Source: Stephanodiscus triporus (Eukaryota; Bacillariophyta; Thalassiosirophyceae; Thalassiosirales; Thalassiosiraceae). From it: a stretch of 43,234 bases of DNA. This document shows, in pieces, positions 6,571 through 22,882 of this stretch. The stretch's first letter is position 1, and every line of letters begins with the position of its first letter. The translations under genes were made by a program, and so were the position numbers. The stretch lies in NCBI GenBank assembly GCA_036939755.1, contig JALLAZ010000137.1, positions 1-43,234 of the forward strand, read 5' to 3'. The notes below the pieces were generated by a model. The model was not told the origin of the DNA. It did not search any database and saw nothing but the letters and a program-made list of their open reading frames with translations.

Positions 6571-9500
6571 ATGGCGCCCTCAAATGCTACTACACTGAGC
6601 GGCAGCGGGCATACTCGTACAGTTGACTTGGTGAGATCGCTTATTCCGTTGTGTTTGAGGACTTCTGCGTGTTACGGCAAGGGTAATTTCACGAGATGCA
6701 GATTTGGCATCGCCAATGATGAAAATTGGACGCTCATGCTGTCTGCATCTGCCTGTATTCTCTGCCAACTACTCCTAACCCTTAAACGCTCAGGTAACGG
6801 GCAAGGTCAAGACGGAATACTTCTTCGACCCAACCCTTGCTCTCTCCCCCGATGTTGAATCCTTTGACTCGTTCGATAAGAAACTCGGACCGCCGCGTAC
6901 GCCGGCCACGAGCCGCGCAAAGGGAAACTATGGTGACGATGACGATTCGGTCCTATTTTCCTCTCGTCACCTCTTCATGCCTTGCACCGTTGTGAAGGAT
7001 ATAGAGATCGATGACGACAGCAAGGATAAATTCGGCTCAATTTCGGCACTTGTCAAAACCGCCGACGGGCAGCTTCACAAAATTAGTGACCGGAAAAAGC
7101 TTGTACCACTCACTGTCCCCGAGGATTACGACGGCGTGCCCGACGTACTCTACCTGCCCAACGTCACCGAGGCGAGCTTGCTACACGCTTTGCGCGTGCG
7201 ATACAATCGTGATGAAATTTACACCAGCGCCGGACCTATACTCATGTCGGTTAATCCGTACAAGACCATCACAATGAAGGATGGGCTGGATTTGTACGCT
7301 GAGGAAAGGATGTTGCTTTATCGCAATTCCAAGTCTAATCCAGGAGCCTCAAGCAACCTACCATGTCATTTGTTTCAAGTGGCCGACAAAGCATACAAAG
7401 AGCTCCTGAAATCGGTCATATCAACCGATAGCCTACCACCGTCGCCCAGAAAAGGAGAGGATACATTGATTAAGTTGACGAAGACGAATCGCAAGGCTAT
7501 GAATCAAAGCATCGTTATCAGCGGAGAAAGTGGTGCGGGAAAGACGGAGGCTACCAAAAAAATCATGCAGTATCTGGCAGGTGTTACCAAAAATAAGGCT
7601 ACGACTGCAGAACAATGCGACAACGGAGGAAGCAAAACGACATCGCTGGAAGATCGCGTCCTCTCCTCGAATCCACTCCTTGAAAGCTTTGGTAATGCCC
7701 GAACGCTGAAAAATGACAATTCGTCCCGCTTTGGAAAATTCATCAAAATTTCCTTCAACATCGAGTCCGGCACCATCGCAGGGGCGTCCATATCGAACTA
7801 CCTTCTTGAAAAGACGCGCATCACGACGCAGATCGAGGGCGAACGCAACTATCACATTTTTTATCAGATATTTTCCGGGGCCGATGATGCCACTCTGACC
7901 AAATTCAAGTTGAATGATGGCGTCGCCGCATTTTATTACCTTGGTAACCGCCCCACGTTGAAGAGCCGTCATGATGCAAGCGCGTTCGAAGAAACCATGA
8001 AGTGTCTAGATCAAATCGGCCTTGTGGAAAAAGAGAAGAGCGACGTCTTGGGCATTCTTGCTGCAGTTCTTCACATTGGGAATATTGTTTTTGAAGTGGT
8101 CAAGGGAGAGGAAGATCACAGTGGGGAGAAGGCTACTATTTCTGAATCCAGTGCCGAGAGTCTCAAAATTGCCTGTAACCTACTTGATTTGGAAGAAACG
8201 AAGGTATCAGAGGCATTATTGACGAAAACACTGAGTGTGGGGGGTAAGACGATTCACAAGCCCCAAGATGTTGTTCAGGCTTCAGACAAACGGGATGCCT
8301 TTGCCAAGCTTGTGTATTCCAGCTTGTTTGTGTGGCTGGTGAACAAAATCAATACCACCCTCGATTTAGATATTGCGCTCCCAGAATCTGCCGATTCTAC
8401 GTTTTCTCCAGTGCGCTGTCCTTACACACCTCCCGCTCCAACGGGCTTTATTGGCGTGCTTGATATCTATGGGTTTGAAAACTTTGTGAACAATGGCTTT
8501 GAACAGCTACTCATCAATTACGCCAATGAGAAATTGCAGAGGTACTTCAATAAGCATGTATTTGAAGTTGAGCAGATAATGTACTCAGACGAAGGAGTGG
8601 ATTGGACATACATCACGTTCAATGACAACCAACCCTGTCTTGATTTGATTGAAGGCGGGGTGGGAAACGTTGGCGTTTTAAGCACGTTGGATGACTCTGG
8701 TGGCATGGGTACCGCGGCGGAGCGCGACGTCAACTTTTTAGCCCAACTTCATCAGAAATTTGGTGGTGTGACAGGGCCATCAACCATGGACTGAATGTCA
8801 ACATCAAAAAAAAAGAAGATAAAGCATAGCAAGAGCCCTACCAAGGAAGTACTATGCCACCAGAACTTCATAACACCTAAATTTGGCAATGATAGGGATT
8901 TCATCATAATTCATTACGCGGGTGAAGTGCGCTATAATGTCACTGGATTTGTGGAAAAGAATGTTGAAACTTTAAGTAATGAGTTAAAAGATCTGGGATC
9001 CACTTCCTCGAATGAATTTACCCGAGGAGTTTTTGGAGCTACGGGCTCTTCATCTCCTGCTGCTGATCTTGGCACTACCCCTTCACGTCGCTCTACGATC
9101 CGAGGAGTGAGCGTTGCATCTCAGTTTCGGACGTCTTTGCAAATGCTGGTGATGGATTTAAACTGCACCAATCCACACTACGTCCGCTGCATTAAGCCAA
9201 ACACACTGAAGGCATATAGTGTATTTGATTCTGGTGAAGTATTACGGCAGCTACGTTATTCTGGAATGATGGAAACGATCAGGATACGCCGAGAGGGTTA
9301 TTCTAACCGGGAAGATCATGGAAGCTTCTACAGAAGATTCAACGTTCTTCTTTCCAGAAAAGAAGTGAAAAATGGTGAAGGTATCGAACATCTGGTGAAA
9401 ATCTTATCAAAGAGACTGAGTTTGACCGAGGCTGAGTGGCAAATTGGTCATACCAAAATCTTTCTTAGGGATGAGTTGGCCAGCAAGCTTGAAGTGTTGG

Positions 9501-12500
9501 CTAAATTGCGACGATCAGCCGCCGCTCGTGTAGTGGGGAAATTTGGGCGTACGATTCTTCAATCGCAAGCAGGCAGGTTGCTGACTGCTTGGATAAGGTT
9601 TCGACTTACTATGCTTCGCAAGTACCGCAGGGCGGCGGCCGCAAATAAGATCTCTTCAACTTACCGCATGCAAAAAATCCGCAAGTCCTACAAATTAACT
9701 TTGCAATCGGTCGTTCGACTTCAATGCCTGCTCCGCGTGGCACTGGCCCGCGCACGTGTTCGAGTGCTGCGTGACCCTTATTTCGATATGTCGTTCAAAG
9801 ACCTGGATTTACTTCATACGAAAGAGGTTTCGCGTTTGGAAAATGCCGTAAATGCAAAAGATTTCAAGACTGCTGCAGATATTGAAAAATCATTGTAAGA
9901 GCCTTAATATGAACTTGGCCATTGACATCTATGTTGACAATTTTATTATTCTCAATTTCTTCGGCTGACTTTATCATTACCTTTCATCTACTTCTTTCAG
10001 GATTCCCCTCAGAGAAGCAATGGAATCAAAGCGACCACTTACACGCTCTGTATTGGAATCAAGAATTACAGAGGTACAATATTTACTTGAAGATGCTGTC
10101 TCTAGAAAAGCATTCACAGAGTGCGCTCCGCTGCAAGAAAAAATGGACAGGCTCATTCGACAGCGTGCAGATTTGCCAAGCATTGATGAAATGAAAGAGG
10201 CAGTTCGCCTGGCTGAAAAAAATGTTGCCGATGCAGCGGCACGGCGGGACTTTTCAGGAGCTGCGACTGCTCAGGCCGTGCTCGATAAAGCCATCGAGAG
10301 GCTTGAAGAGGCTATGCGATCTGAAGGAGTTGATGCCGACAGTGGCGATTCAGTGGAAAATGGAAGTGATAGTAGGTTTCAATCACGGGCAGATTTGGAG
10401 ATTGCAATTGCGGAGGCAGCCAAAAATATTGATGATGCCATTGCTAAGAAAGATTTTAATCAGGCCACTAAATTTCAAGCAGAGATTGAAGAACTCGAGA
10501 ACCTTCGGGCGACTTTGCCTTCGCTCGAAGAAATTGAGTCAGAGATAAGAGAATTCAAGGAGAAGATGAATGTTGCAATAAAAGAAAAGAATTTCAAGAA
10601 AGCAGATTCTCTCCAGAAAGAAATTGAAATATTGGAGGCAAAGTTGGAAAATGAGAGAGCAAAATTGACCGCAAAGTCCGAGACTAGAGAAATAGTAGAG
10701 AGATCTTTGCCTAAATTCAGCAATGAAAAGGGGGTGGATATCACTTTTACGAGTCGCTTTGAGCTCGATGAAGAAATACATCGGTTCAAATCCCTAGTTC
10801 AAAAATTTGCCAGTGCCAAAAAATTCAAAGAAGCATCCCTACACCAGCGATTCATTGACCAGCTGGAAGAGTTGAAACCGTTGCTCCCGACAGAACAAGA
10901 GCTGAACAGCGACCTCGCCAGAACAATGGCAGAAATTGAATCAGCAATTCAAAACAAAAACTTTGACAAGGCAGAAAAACTTCATGAAATCGCAGATGAT
11001 CTTGAAAGGATGCTTGCAGTGGAGAGGAAGAACGCGGCTAAGTCATCAGACAAATCTATGAATAATTTTTACGCAGCACCTCCTGCTGTTGTAAAAACTC
11101 CATTCAAAACACCGTTGCATGATAGCACGAATACTAATATCATTTCTGCTTGCAGTGTAAGAAGAGTATCGAAGAATCTCGCTACATCATTTACCAACAG
11201 CAAGCCCGTATCCAAGCTTCGTCCGAAAGCACCCATGATATCTACTTCAGATTCCACGGTGCTTTCCATTGCACAGATGCTTGCAAGCAAGAGGGGCGAT
11301 GCCGCCATAATCACCAATAGTGCTGGCGAGCTTGCAGGAATCATCACCGACACTGATGTTACGCGTCGGGTTGTTGCAAAGAATCTTCTTGCCTCCAAGA
11401 CTTGCGTTGCAGATGTCATGACCTCCAATCCTTCATGTGTGTCCATGTCAGATCCAGCCACGGATGCATTGATGACCATGGTGGAAAACCGGTTTCGCCA
11501 CCTCCCTGTCACTGACGCTAGTGGCACAGTGGTAGGCGTGTTGGATATTGCGAAATGTTTGAATGATGCAATATCCAAGCTCGAGCAAAGTAAAGAGAAA
11601 AGTAGCAATGCAGCGGAGGAAGCCTTGAATGCAACGTTGGGTGGAGCCGGTGGTGCACAAGCAGCAGCATTGAGGCAATTGTTAGGGCCGCTCATGTCTC
11701 AAGCATTTGGTGGCCAATCCTCACCTACCCTCCGTACTGTCTTGGCTGGCAAACCGTCGACCATTGTTTCGCCGTTGACAACGATCCAAGAGACAGGGCA
11801 CAAGATGGCGGAAGCTCGCAAGGCTGCGTTGGTGGTAGAGAATGGCCGGTTGGTTGGTATATTTGGATTTAAAGACATGATGATACGAGCTGTAGCAAAA
11901 GAGTTGCCCTTAGATTTCACACCAGTGTCGACTGTGATGACGCCGAACCCCGAGTCAGTGTCTCCTGACACGACTGTGCTGGAGGCATTACAAATCATGC
12001 ATGACAACAAGTTCTTGACTCTCCCTGTGTGTGAGTCCAACGGTAATGTCATCGGGGTAGTTGATGTGATGGATTGTGTTTATGGGTCAGGAGGCGCTGA
12101 TGGATGGAGGTCAGTCTTTGCGCAAGCAATGGACTGTGATGATCTGACTGACGCTGCATCAGTCCTCAGCAACCGATGCGGTAGTGTCAGATCAGCGAAT
12201 ATCTCTCGTAAGGTTGATGAGAGACCTGTTGCTAAGCTTCGTCCGCAGAAGCCCATACTCATGGGAATATCCGAAAACGTGCTCACTGTCGCTCAGACGC
12301 TTGCTAGCAAAAGAGGAGACGCAGCATTAATAGTCAATGTTGATGGTGGCGTTGCAGGAATCATCACTGACACTGATGTTACGCGTCGGGTTGTCGCGAA
12401 GGATTTGCCTGCCAGACTCACCAATGTGTCTGATGTTATGACTGCGAATCCGACTTGTGTAATGATGTCTGATTCAGCGATGGAAGCATTGATTACCATG

Positions 12501-13724
12501 GTGGAAAACCGGTTTCGTCACCTCCCTGTCACTGATGATAATGGGAACATTGTAGGATGTCTAAATATTGCAAAATGTTTGAACGATGCGATTTCAAAGC
12601 TTGAGAGGGCCCAGGACAAGAATGATTCTGCTGCTCAAGATGCGGTTAAGCAAGTGACGAGTATACAACTTGCCGGAGGTGCCAACCAAGCAGCTACTTT
12701 GCAGGCTCTACTAGGACCTCTGTTAGCCCATGTATTAGGTGGCAAATCATCCCCCACTCTTAGGTCTGTCCTGGTTGGAAAGCCGTCGAATATTGTAAGT
12801 CCAAACTTGAATGTACAAAAAGTTGGATGTATGATGGCACACGCTAGAAAAGCTGCCTTGGTCGTGGAAAGTGACAAGCTGGTTGGAATATTCGGATTCA
12901 AAGATATGATGACGCGAGTTGTTGCCAAGGAATTGCCGTTGGATAGCACCCCTGTATCTGCTGTGATGACTCCAAACCCAGAGTTTGTACCTCCTGAGAC
13001 CACGGTGCTGGAGGCACTGCAAGTCATGCACGATAACAAATTCCTTACTTTGCCTGTTTGTGAAAATGATGGTCGGGTGGTAGGACTTGTAGATGTGATG
13101 GACTGTGTCCATGCTTCAGGCGGTGCCGAGGGATGGAAATCTCTGTTTGATTCTGCACTTGATGAAGATGATGTCTCTTCGGTTTTGACGGACAACAAGA
13201 GCCAAATGCCACCTCCTCTAGTGGCTACATCTCACCCAAACAATATCCCTCTACAAGTAGAAATAGGCAAAGGGCTGCAGGGTGACCAAGATTCTATTGG
13301 TGAGAGTTCTACCCTCCAAAACCCTGTCAGCACAGTTGAGTCAAGGGCGATTCGATCAGCGGTATTCGAAGATCTTGTGGTGTACAAGATTGTCGATGAT
13401 GCCGACCAAACATATGTGATACGTGCAGGAAAGACAGTAGACTCCATATCCGAAGCACTGAAAGGAAAAATACCCAACTTTGATTCTTCAACTGCAGTGT
13501 TCAAATATTTCGATCACGAAGGCGACGAAATTCTCATCAAGAGTGATGAATGTTTGGATGAGGCTGTTCGGTCATCCGCCCAATCGGGTAACAAGAATGT
13601 CAAATTATCTATTAAATCGAAGAAAATCTCTTCGATGAATACCATGTTTATGCTTGCAGGCGGGACAGGGTTGGTAGCCGCCATTGCAATTGCTGTCACG
13701 ATTGTCCTGAAGCCTAAGAAATAA
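6571..13724 (+). CDS. Class XXIX myosin: motor, IQ, coiled coil, eight CBS domains, PB1, membrane anchor
   Basis: Unconventional myosin, 2272 residues in the model 6571-6630, 6794-8767, 8834-9894, 10001-13724. Motor domain about 20-920: P-loop GESGAGKT (264-271), switch I NARTLKNDNSSRFGKF (321-336), switch II DIYGFENF (577-584), actin-interface strand VRCIKPN (795-801). About three IQ-like basic helices follow (930-1010), then repeated 35-45-residue coiled-coil units with cores such as KKDFNQATKFQAEIEEL (1010-1370). Two copies of a four-CBS block start near 1437 and 1777, giving eight CBS domains (four Bateman pairs). A PB1-like domain begins near 2156, and a hydrophobic anchor with a Lys tail ends the protein. 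This order matches the described class XXIX architecture of stramenopiles. CBS pairs usually bind adenosyl nucleotides, so nucleotide-sensing cargo transport is an inference. An in-frame TGA at 8792-8794 is removed by a phase-compatible 66-base intron. Confidence 0.9.
8768..8833 (+). other. Probable 66-base intron containing the in-frame TGA in the myosin gene
   Basis: The motor frame runs up to HQKFGG, then meets TGA at 8792-8794, then resumes in the same frame with the typical NFITPKFGND and HYAGEVRY segments. GT at 8768 and AG at 8832-8833 would join FGG to SPTKEVL in phase 0. Acceptors at 8845 and others are also phase-compatible, so the exact right edge is open. Confidence 0.55.
11214..13253 (+). 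repeat. 1020-base tandem duplication encoding the CBS array
   Basis: Unit A begins at 11214 and unit B at 12234, both with AAGCTTCGTCCG. Matching landmarks keep exactly 1020 bases (340 codons) between them, for example GACACTGATGTTACGCGTCG starting near 11349 and 12369. Each unit encodes four CBS domains. Spacing is codon-exact and nucleotide identity is patchily high, so the duplication is selected in frame or partly homogenised. The right edge of unit B is approximate. Confidence 0.85.
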
Positions 13725-17701: not shown

Positions 17702-17965
17702 CGGGTTGCGGGCGATGTGCCAGGTCGCGTGGCCCGCTTACGTTTCCTCTTTGTCGGAGTTTTGAGAAGAGTGAAGAGAATAATGACGCAGAAAGTAGCG
17801 CGATTTCCCCCCTCGGGCGCCGCCCCCCCTTCCCCCCCCTTCGCTCCCGCCAACCCACGCAAAGCCCACACTTCTACAACTACTACACCGCCACCCACAA
17901 CACACCCGCCCTACACTGAACCCAAACCCTCAACTGACGCTCCCGACTCAAATGAAAATCGAACG

Positions 17966-20747
17966 ATGGCATTAATTTCGTGTGCTGGCTGCAATGAGCA
18001 ATTCAGCAGCAGAAACCAATTGTTTCGTCATTTGAATCAGACGGCCAAGACTTGTCTCTCTTCCGAAGAGTACACAAATTTTCTAGTCAAGTCCTACGAA
18101 AAGCGGGAAAAGATTGGAGTGCTCTATGGATATTACCCTGGTACGGATTTTCGGTTCCTCGATCACCATTCCTCTGCGCGCAATGATTCTTCACTGGTTG
18201 GAATCGAAGGGGGACAACATGCTGCTTGTCTGGTGACACTAGCAATCGATAGAGTGTCTTATGGACTCAATGGTGGTGCCAGCGATGCATCGGAAAGTTG
18301 CCCCCCTGCAGCCGCCAACTTCAAAATAAATCGCTCGTATGGATCAACATCGAGAGAGTCCGAATCCGTTGCTCAAGATCCTCATACGGGTGCTATTACA
18401 GAAGTATTGTGTACGACTGCCGTGCCTTTGTTTGGTGACGACGAGACCAATGAGCATACGCACAATGACACACGAACACAAATCAAAGCAAAGACGCTTG
18501 CTTGGGTAACATTTGTAAATGAACAGTTGGATCAAATTCTCGCCTCTATGACAAGTGCGCATATCAACCAATCAACATCACCGAGTGAAATTCATGACTG
18601 GTCGCCAGGAAGGATTCGGGTCTTCGGCAGAGTCGCAATACCACAAAAGAAATTTAACGCCGAAACTGACGTTACGCATCGCCGCGTAGATTATTGTTTC
18701 CCAGCCGACTTGTTGTATGCCTCCTCGAGAGAAGGATTGTCCCAGGCAGCACTACAGTCGCATGCATCAACACTTCAAGATTTTTTTGATTCTTTCCCTT
18801 CATTCCAGCCTGGCAGCAAACCGTATTCAGCTTTTGGCAACGTTCTATCCTATGACAACCGTCCCGATGAAAATACAATATCATACCTCTATAAAATGAA
18901 GCAGATCATGAAACGAATCTCAACACATGTCGAAGAATTGAATGAAAATGACGCTGCGGCTGTTCTAGAAAAGGAATTCCATGATGCCAAGAGGAAAAAG
19001 AAGACGAAGAAGAGGAATGGGTCTGAAATTATTTCAGACAAAACAGCCAGCAGACCTCTCACACCGAAACGGCTGTTAAAGCGAAAGAGATACCACAATT
19101 TTTGTCCCAGAATCCTTGCTCACGACTTCCTTGCCTACCGAAGAGTTGACAGAATATTTCATCGTGCCACTATTAGACTGACAGGATTAGCAGGCATGGA
19201 CAGTGTTGGACCAAAATTATCATCTACAGTAATAGAGAATCGACCTTTCATTGTAATTTCTCTGACAGGAGACTTGTTTTTACAGGAGCAGTAAGTAACA
19301 GTCACTCTATTCCTTCAGCAATTTATGTACATTCAAGCTAATCCTTGGCATTTGCATTTACTCTTTTTCCTTGTCGCAGGGTCGTTCGGATCATTGGTTT
19401 ATTAATAGCAATATGTCGAGGTGTGTCTGTGTACTATCAAAGGGCTATAACTTTTGTCTAAGTCTGCCACACGAGCAACTGAATCTGGTTTCTTGATTTC
19501 ATAGGTGTGATTGGTGATGACATCATCGAATGCATGTTCGACGAAGAATATACCTCTCTGGTGCCTGCGCCACCTGCCCCAAATTTTGGTCTACTGTCAA
19601 GAGAATCCCAGTACATGATGTGGGAAGGACGCATGAAAACAATTCTGAATGCGCGCACGACTGATAGATACCCTGCAATCTCTAGATCGCTCGGGTGGAA
19701 CGATGAAGAGGTGGTGAGGGCTGTAGAAGAATGGGAAAAGATCGTGCTGCAAGAAGTGGGTCGCAGTTGGTACTGGAAGGGAGAGGAGGATGGCCGACTC
19801 AATACAGCGATGCAGTGGTTAGACAATGTATTGCATCCTTGGGCAGCACGGACGCGAGAATCGCTGCATGATTATCATCGATGGAAGGCTTCCAAAACCA
19901 CAAATATCATCGCAGGCCCTTCATTCCTTCCTTTGTTGAAAGATACTGATAATGCTGTTCCACAGTTATTCGAGAAGGTACTATATTGCTTGCGTCAAGT
20001 CGATTCAAGTGGCCTTTGGCCCTCTACAACTCCCAATAGACAATTGGTGATGTTGTCTACTTCCAGTGACGAATCGCAGGCTCAGGCTCTCTCTGTGGCG
20101 CATATGAAGGCGAAGAAGAACTATGATTCAAGGTCATCGGCCTACTCATTTAAAGAAGGCGACGGAGGTGCCAGTGGATCATTTTCGGTAGGTTTCATGC
20201 CTGGCGACCAATGCTGCCAGCCGAAGGCTAATTTACTGTTTCCAGATTTGGTGAAAGCCGCCTTTCAATTGGAGGTGGATCTCTGTCCTGATCGAATCCC
20301 ATCAAGCACCATAGCGATAAATCGAAATGCGCAGTTCCGGCCTCACACAGACAACGGTGCCGGAGCTGGGCAGAGCACCAGCCTGATCGTCGGGCTCGGA
20401 AACTACGTCGGTGGTGAGCTTGTGGTGGAGGGCGCGAAGAAAGACATTCGATACAAAGCAGTGGAGTTCGACGGGTGGAAGCAAAGGTAAGACCTTTAAT
20501 GCTGCTGTTTTTCTTTCCCCGACACTGCATGCCTCTCTGATATCGACTCCTTATCATAACGTGAAATGATAGGCATTGGACACTGCCTTTCCAGGGAGAG
20601 CGCTACAGTTTGGTATGGTTTACACCGAAAGGCAAGTTATGTATGGTCTATTTTCTTCACTGCCTTTATCATCTGTCTCTCTCATTTGTGCCTCACTTTG
20701 TTTAAGTAGGATGCGAAGGTGTTAGAGGCATAGATCTTATCTCATAG
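17966..20747 (+). CDS. TruA-type pseudouridine synthase fused to 2OG-Fe(II) dioxygenase, with zinc-binding N-terminus
   Basis: Predicted RNA-modifying fusion of 814 residues. Exons 17966-19290, 19380-19420, 19505-20486, 20573-20631 and 20710-20747 join in frame; the last donor is GC (GCAAGT). Residues 1-30 hold a CxxC...H...C cluster (CAGCNEQFSS then HLNQTAKTC). A TruA-like region follows: SVAQDPHTGAITEVL could carry the catalytic Asp, FNAETDVTHRRVDYCFPAD is its middle, and PFIVISLTGDLFLQEQVVRI and GLLIAICRG match the C-terminal TruA signature. The last 200 residues look like a 2-oxoglutarate/Fe(II) oxygenase: HTD supplies the first His and Asp, GLGNYVGGELVVEG the core strands, HWTLPFQGERYSLVWFTPKG the second metal His and the 2OG Arg. 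The frame is open upstream to an ATG at 17717; 17966 was chosen because the zinc cluster starts there and 17717 nearly abuts the divergent gene. Confidence 0.75.
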
Positions 20748-21237: not shown

Positions 21238-22575
21238 TTACGAAACCAACTCGGAAGAATGCTCCTTCCTCCCATCGGATCTATCATCGCTTCTATGATC
21301 GGGGTCGTTCGAGCTCCCGTTCCCCATGTCGGCCTTGCAGGGCTCGTCGACGTCCATGCTCCCCGACCCCCTCGGCACGAGCTGACTCTCGACCCCCCCC
21401 GTCTGGATCTGCGTGCCCGGCACCGGCTCCACCCCCCGCAGTATCTCGAGCAGCTGCTCCTTCGTCCTATTCAGGTACTCTTTCGAATTCAGATTTTCCA
21501 TGTTCGAGACAGGCAGGTGCAGGCCGTAGTCCGGACCGAAGTACTCGTAGTAATCGTTGAAGGGCATGTCGTCCTTCACCGGCTCGCCCACGGCCACGGC
21601 CGTCTCGTACGTCCAACACCTCGGCACGTTCCGTAGCGTGTACCCTCCTCCCCCGAGTATCAGCAGCGGGACGTTGAACGTGCGCATGAAGCCGACGCAC
21701 TCGGCGTGTCCCTTGACGCTTAGGTTGAAGCACCCGAGCCTGTCGCCCGAGAGGGAGTCGGCGCCGCACTGGAGCACGACCGCGCCTGGCGCGAATCGCT
21801 CCATGACCGCCGCCAGGACTGGCTTGAACACCGACTGGTACGCCGCGTCGTCCATCCCGTCGTTGAGGGGGAAGTTGATGGCGTAATTCTTGCCGTCGGC
21901 GTATCCCACGTCGAGGACGTCCCCGGTGCCGGGGAAGTACTCGCCGAACTTGTGGAACGACACGGTCATGACGCGATTCGTCGAGTAGAACGCCTCCTCG
22001 ACGCCGTCGCCGTGGTGGATGTCGATGTCGATGTACAGCACGCGCTCGTGCTTCTTGAGCAGCTCGAGTATCGCCAGCACGCAGTCGTTGATGTAGCAGA
22101 ATCCCGACGCCTCGGACTTCTTGGCGTGATGGAGGCCGCCGCTCCAGTTGATGACGATGTCGGCGTTGTCGTCGTTGAGGCGCGCCGCGCCCCCGATGCT
22201 GCCGGACGTGTACAGCTGGCAGAATTCGAAGAGCCCGTCGAAGACGGGACAATCCTCGCCGACGTTGAAGCGCTGGAGCTGTCGGGCGTAGTCGCCCATG
22301 TTGTCGGGGGTGATGACCTTGAGGAAGTTGATGTAATCGTCGGAGTGGAACCGGGTCATGGCCGTGGGACTTATCAGGCGGGGTCGGAAGACGTCCATGC
22401 GCTTGTACAGTCCGTAGTTCACCACTAGGTTGTGGGTCATACGGACGCGGTGGGGCTTCATGGGATGGCCCTGGCCGTAGTGGTAATTGCCCACCTCGGC
22501 GTCGTAGAAATACGACACGCGGCGGGAGGTGGTGGAGATGGGGGAGATGACCGGCGCGGCGGAGGACGTTGTCAT
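21238..22575 (-). CDS. Class I (RPD3/HDAC1-like) histone deacetylase
   Basis: Zinc-dependent lysine deacetylase of 445 residues, single exon, expected to act in nuclear co-repressor complexes. The fold is complete: [20 protein letters not shown] and [12 protein letters not shown] near the N-terminus, [20 protein letters not shown] with the catalytic His pair, [17 protein letters not shown] with zinc ligands, [31 protein letters not shown] with the third zinc Asp, and the glycine-rich [20 protein letters not shown] with the catalytic-site Tyr region. A charged disordered tail of about 70 residues follows, as in class I enzymes. The frame is open upstream to 22875, but homologous sequence starts only after the Met at 22575. 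The upstream part contains hydrophobic and low-complexity sequence and is read as 5' leader. The family assignment is firm. Confidence 0.95.
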
Positions 22576-22882
22576 TGTCTTAATAGTGGTCTCGGGCGTC
22601 GGACGGAGGTCGTTATGTTTTATCTCGGCGTTCAGCGGGGTGAAAATAAGGGGGAGAAATAAATAGAGTGGGAGGAGTTGTTTTTTTATTGTTCCCACGT
22701 AGTAGAACCCACGCACGAGAGGAGCAAAATTTGGCGGGGACCGCGCCGCCATGTGAATGTTGTGCTGCGTCTCCGGCCGAGGCCACAAAGGCGTGGGGCG
22801 TCGCGTGGCACAAGTCCGACACATCCTATGTTCGACACATCGTGGATAGATCTTTCTTTCTAACGAAAAGTTCATCGGAGGA
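22576..22882. promoter_or_regulatory. Divergent promoter shared by the HDAC and lumen-protein genes
   Basis: 307 bases between two divergent start codons. AAATTTGGCGGGGA at 22727-22740 is E2F-like but imperfect. No other element was identified. Confidence 0.35.

Follow-up and report, generated by a model that had tools for sequence, protein, structure and literature searches.

The closest described systems for the protein considered here are the PUS1/TruA tRNA pseudouridine synthases, with their RTDxGVxA motif, and the TET/JBP base oxygenases, dependent on 2-oxoglutarate (2OG) and Fe(II). In ALKBH8, an RNA-binding part, an AlkB oxygenase and a methyltransferase are combined in a single chain. 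Iyer and colleagues (Cell Cycle 2009) are said to have predicted an algal family of 2OG/Fe(II) oxygenases acting on RNA and occurring in many architectures, and the exact layout described below may already be among them. The locus in question is a gene of the diatom Stephanodiscus triporus, located in a stretch of 43,234 nucleotides of contig JALLAZ010000137.1 (hereafter, the window), which encodes a zinc finger, a TruA/PUS1-like domain and a 2OG/Fe(II) oxygenase in one spliced frame.

The protein shares with the PUS1/TruA synthases the predicted fold, the C-half motif, the HNF motif and the spacing of the catalytic loop, but differs from them in the replacement of RTD by xQ[D/E], the loss of the active-site Tyr (in the window's group), a long insert before the C-half and the fused finger and oxygenase. 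Its likeness to TET/JBP includes the predicted beta-helix fold, the HxD...H...R pattern, the top oxygenase match in Foldseek and weak Tet_JBP profile matches; unlike TET/JBP, it stays under the Pfam cut-off and is joined to the fold of an RNA enzyme where TET/JBP have DNA-binding parts. The logic of ALKBH8, i.e., RNA binding plus an oxygenase, seems to recur here, along with a methyltransferase in a sister gene of the same genome, although the putative RNA-binding fold is different, the methyltransferase is of the FkbM type and the oxygenase is, by its best match, TET-like and not AlkB-like. In the open-licence literature, neither a description of this fusion nor a mention of a family-wide loss of the synthase site was found. 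As to the fusion, this is in line with the original prediction, which had been made from the DNA letters and held that no enzyme of this layout was known to have been characterised.

A spliced fusion gene kept across diatoms and brown algae

The gene consists of five exons and four introns on the plus strand (17966-20747), and the joined coding sequence of 2445 bases specifies 814 residues and a stop. Its start, end, number of exons and protein length had all been predicted exactly. All four introns close with AG; the donors are GT in three cases and GC in the fourth, where the GC-AG intron 3' of exon 4 opens with GCAAGT at 20632-20637. The exons and the finger are arranged as follows:

17966..19290, plus strand: exon 1, residues 1-442, with the zinc finger, the N-half and the start of the C-half of the TruA/PUS1-like domain (open frame, GT donor, full-length homologues)
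17981..18055, plus strand: C2HC zinc finger within exon 1, with the ligands C6, C9, H22 and C30 (weak Pfam zf-C2H2 match and ligand conservation)
19380..19420, plus strand: exon 2, residues 442-456, a piece of the TruA/PUS1-like C-half (splice sites and frame)
19505..20486, plus strand: exon 3, residues 456-783, with the end of the TruA/PUS1-like domain, a helical linker and the bulk of the oxygenase
20573..20631, plus strand: exon 4, with the iron ligand H784 (20574-20576) and the putative 2OG-binding R793 (20601-20603), followed by the GC donor
20710..20747, plus strand: exon 5, with the final residues GCEGVRGIDLIS and the stop

An in-frame ATG is also present upstream, at 17783. Alignments with close homologues begin at residues 1-4 of the shorter form, and since the homologues start there at or near their own first residue (their own residue 4 for P0001, residue 1 for P0003 and P0004; P0006 aligns from its own residue 26), position 17966 is the better start. 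At the other end, the GCEG...GID ending recurs in most of the homologues shown.

The fusion gene is real, as confirmed by its homologues. The search covered 5.8 billion proteins and scored 7997 of them, 298 with E <= 0.001; among the best 120 listed, 97 span at least 94% of the query with an identity of 40-66%, the best organism-named matches being those of the diatoms Thalassiosira and Discostella. The row counts given below refer to 115 aligned rows, from which six of the best 120 homologues, with 700 residues or fewer, were excluded. The C-half of the PUS domain and the oxygenase core are both present in 108 of the 114 homologues longer than 700 residues, and 97 of these 108 possess the finger region as well. 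The same order of parts is found in four proteins named from the brown algae Ectocarpus and Hapterophycus, so the fusion is kept across diatoms and brown algae. Five transcript-derived MMETSP homologues marked type:complete (P0001, P0004, P0006, P0033 and P0120) align with the window protein as far as its residue 812 or 814; hence, the transcripts of relatives run through the oxygenase and do not stop short of it. The predicted layout and its continuity in one spliced frame are thereby borne out. Two trivial explanations, a gene-model artefact fusing two neighbours and chance open frames, were rejected on the homologues and transcripts. Pfam alone would miss much of this fusion, and on the window protein by itself its signals are too weak to settle the matter.

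In a tree of 45 oxygenase domains (5 of the 50 chosen rows were left out, as their oxygenase core was not matched by the pattern used), the window's group of 22 forms one clade with a support of 95/96. This clade sits in an open fork shared with the reductase-type rows and those from brown algae (among the four labelled brown, P0230 carries the label without an organism name); the deeper order is unsure, since 17 of the 42 inner branches are open.

The zinc cluster of the original prediction turned out to be the C2HC finger listed above. Its zf-C2H2 match in the window protein reaches 15.1 bits, under the cut-off of 25.2, and the ligands are near-invariant among the rows with a letter at the respective place (C6 and C9, 102/102 each; H22, 106/106; C30, 106/107).

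Conserved oxygenase ligands and an eroded synthase site

Fold searches with Foldseek and VIA place the predicted C-terminal part among the double-stranded beta-helix oxygenases, TET/JBP coming first among the oxygenases in Foldseek, the viral models and Pfam. The HTD...H...R pattern noticed originally corresponds to H736, D738, H784 and R793. Both the predicted beta-helix fold and the HxD...H and putative 2OG-binding R characteristic of the 2OG/Fe(II) oxygenases are present. The first two ligands belong to the following element:

20344..20352, plus strand: HTD, with the iron ligands H736 and D738 (H in 111 and D in 111 of the 115 rows, the remaining four being gapped)

Of the 115 rows, 108 retain H784 and 107 retain R793, with nearly all of the exceptions being gaps. 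The tetrad is complete in 107 rows; of the others, seven are gapped and one (P0081) has a deviant C-terminal end. Identity in the oxygenase core averages 84% in sampled pairs.

Profile searches gave fainter signals. Pfam detected no oxygenase family in the whole window protein at E up to 10, and Tet_JBP matched 5 of 14 oxygenase pieces at all, with the best E of 0.0016. No convincing sequence relative was obtained by running the oxygenase profile against solved structures (two telomere-protein chains appeared at E 1.2), and PHROGs returned only three weak matches of unknown function. No relative was confirmed when viral and bacterial/archaeal contigs were scanned with the oxygenase alignment, which is weak evidence of absence, since each scan rests on two short peptide patterns.

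The middle part is predicted to adopt the PUS1/TruA fold, at about residues 49-590 in the model of an orthologue. The Pfam family PF01416 scores 17.3 bits on the window protein, under its cut-off of 23.3, and passes the cut-off in 7 of the 10 relatives scanned, those seven having been picked as already flagged with PF01416. The two places that matter for catalysis are these:

18371..18403, plus strand: residues 136-146, AQDPHTGAITE, standing where synthases have the RTD catalytic motif, with the Asp kept and the Arg lost (motif register and column counts)
18686..18688, plus strand: Val241, at the place of the conserved active-site Tyr (register from the match to human PUS1)

Throughout the window's group, RTD is replaced by x-Gln-Asp/Glu. 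Gln137 is invariant (115/115), and so is Glu146 in the orthologues; the Asp place (Asp138, assigned by spacing) is occupied by Asp in 105 rows and Glu in 10. The Arg of RTD is found in 13 of the 115 rows, the window protein having Ala there, and the place of the Tyr is taken by Val (57 rows), Ile (40), Met (7) or other residues (11), never by Tyr. Identity in the motif region amounts to 54%. As a control, RTD is intact in all four canonical TruA genes of the same genome (1324 contigs, 21.65 Mb searched), where the complete RTDxGVxA motif is also visible.

The register was derived from the RTDxGVxA spacing, both to the Ala that follows and to the Glu replacing the Gln of the next strand, from the match of FN...R.Y.YLLP to human PUS1, and from the strand starting four residues past the Asp place in both predicted models. 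Local alignment of the profile with just one canonical TruA from this genome proved unusable. A forced global profile alignment put Asp138 on the RTD Asp and Val241 on the Tyr for one of three canonical TruA proteins, with a probability of only 6.8%, and failed for the other two.

The weight of these replacements can be judged from published mutants. According to PMC10631681, yeast PUS1 loses about 87% of its activity in R132A and is dead in D134A; according to PMC3919597, RluB R108A retains 0.6% and Y140F about 3% of activity. Judging by the residues that occupy it, the PUS1-like pocket appears to be largely retired, with weak or altered synthase activity possible.

Sister genes, other relatives and neighbours

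The same genome harbors a sister gene, C386 (L011:3385-6923), encoding 1150 residues with a finger, a TruA-like part, an oxygenase of the same kind and an FkbM methyltransferase (PF05050, E 1.4e-10). Its presequence, with an ASSF motif, is presumably of a secretory or plastid-like type. PF05050 is present in 60 of the 117 relatives retrieved with the second half of C386. The sister group examined comprises 67 rows chosen by rank, i.e., the sister gene and P0121-P0186, 10 of the latter 66 having no precomputed FkbM domain. A third, distant relative of the oxygenase, C1104 (L008:181-1203), stands alone within its open frame of 340 residues and has no Pfam match at E up to 1.

In a third search, an aldo/keto reductase (PF00248) was found in 6 of the 90 proteins listed; the second predicted model, which includes a reductase part, is of low overall confidence (pLDDT 61.3). 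The alignment suggested that the catalytic loop is deleted in P0229 and P0233-P0237; this was rejected upon reading by hand, which revealed the loop to be present, mostly without the Asp. The Asp is absent in five of the six relatives with a GEHA/DEHA motif, a count made without P0238 and P0266, and P0266 has lost both the Asp and the Tyr.

Mixed architectures were read by eye among P0227, P0183, P0222 and P0223. These include AlkB (PF13532) with a degenerate oxygenase-like part and FkbM, an oxygenase with FkbM where the TruA part was not seen by eye, and a TruA C-half with FkbM and without an oxygenase.

Within the window, the gene is adjoined by a histone deacetylase on the minus strand (21238-22875; PF00850, E 5.1e-83). 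A myosin head is encoded at 6977-9898 by two abutting open frames of the same register with one stop between them; the myosin profile is matched from 81 to 467 in the first frame and from 468 to 679 in the second, and the roughly 30 unmatched codons in between are probably an in-phase intron. The region 10020-13724 encodes a protein of 1234 residues in which four stretches match CBS, along with a weak match to PB1.

A proposed role and its alternatives

The protein may be an RNA-directed 2OG/Fe(II) oxygenase of a TET/JBP-like kind, steered by a PUS1-like fold without useful pseudouridine synthesis, a reading in which our confidence is about evenly balanced. The finger and the TruA/PUS1-like domain would hold on to a structured RNA, with a tRNA stem-loop or some other helix like those bound by PUS1 as the likeliest partner, and present a base to the C-terminal oxygenase, which would hydroxylate it, most likely at a pyrimidine C5 group. 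The PUS1-like pocket, remodelled at Gln137, Asp/Glu138 and Glu146, would serve as a recognition site, and pseudouridine would not be made at a useful rate. A precedent for the oxidation of m5C in tRNA is given by TET2 and ALKBH1, as stated in PMC11503269.

A number of findings weigh against this reading. Regarding the oxygenase, the VIA scores of AlkB, TET, FTO and prolyl hydroxylases lie no more than one Z unit apart, a tie that makes a protein or other substrate possible; the window's oxygenase piece matches Tet_JBP with 11.5 bits (E 0.18; cut-off 34.9), and Tet_JBP has no match in the six-frame translated genome. The oxygenase ligands are lost in some methyltransferase-bearing relatives (P0168 from Pseudo-nitzschia; P0161 and others), suggesting that some branches can do without the oxygenase and arguing against a strict hydroxylate-then-methylate coupling. 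Regarding the synthase, the register of Asp138 comes from spacing, secondary structure and the low-confidence profile alignment mentioned above. The Asp is retained in most rows of a well-conserved motif region, so the pocket does something and is perhaps a weak or unusual synthase; moreover, the Arg two places before the Asp persists in a minority of rows. Of the 67 sister-group rows, 61 keep the Tyr and 15 the Arg, the brown-algal rows keep the Tyr, and the reductase-bearing P0238 keeps the Arg, Asp and Tyr together. The need for the Tyr is less clear than that for the Asp or Arg, since human Pus1 retains part of its activity in several Tyr mutants, according to PMC3919597.

The retained residues in the window's group, in the sister group and in P0238, together with the RTDxGVxA-like spacing to the next motif residues, also speak for the scheme originally proposed, where pseudouridine formation by the PUS part is followed by oxidation, in the oxygenase, of this pseudouridine or of a neighbour in the same RNA. 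Still, this scheme looks unlikely, considering that the window's group lacks the RTD Arg in 102 and the Tyr in 115 of the 115 rows, that Glu stands for Asp in ten of these rows and in the brown-algal ones (AQE), that most GEHA/DEHA-motif relatives have no Asp, and that the Arg and Tyr mutants cited above are impaired. Of the original interpretation, the layout and its continuity are upheld, as is the view that both parts most likely belong in a nucleic-acid setting. Two active chemistries in turn are not supported, because the synthase pocket has lost residues shown to be necessary by the published mutants, with the oxygenase tetrad whole in nearly all rows.

It is rather improbable that the oxygenase targets a protein, e.g., a ribosomal or translation protein, with the PUS-like domain serving just as its anchor on ribosomes or pre-ribosomes, a role that PUS-like folds seem to have in mitoribosome assembly particles: the VIA tie leaves room for such a substrate, but TET/JBP ranks first by the three other comparisons. 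A DNA-modifying oxygenase like TET/JBP, with the finger and the PUS fold bound at chromatin to DNA or to a nascent transcript, would fit the TET/JBP-type similarity, the C2H2-type finger and the Lys/Arg-rich stretch (at least 7 in 10) of 55 of the 115 rows, but is highly improbable given that the middle domain has its nearest solved fold in an RNA-modifying enzyme family and that a single finger was found.

For the RNA-directed oxygenase steered by a PUS1-like fold, the findings suggest that algae have recruited an old RNA-modifying enzyme as the docking arm of one that oxidises RNA. More tentatively, ochrophytes may possess a whole family of enzymes for RNA hypermodification that are modular in build: a retired PUS1 fold would serve them repeatedly to dock a tRNA or other RNA, the TET/JBP-like oxygenase would add a hydroxyl or carbonyl, and, in parallel branches, a fused FkbM or aldo/keto reductase would finish the product, yielding undescribed nucleosides. 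Caution is due in calling such proteins working TruA enzymes, as the names of some homologues imply. If the proposed role is true, a modified RNA base detectable by nucleoside mass spectrometry is predicted in diatoms, the sister genes with a methyltransferase or reductase predict further products, and a pseudouridine synthase would have been repurposed, in a major group of ocean algae, as a guide for another RNA-modifying chemistry.
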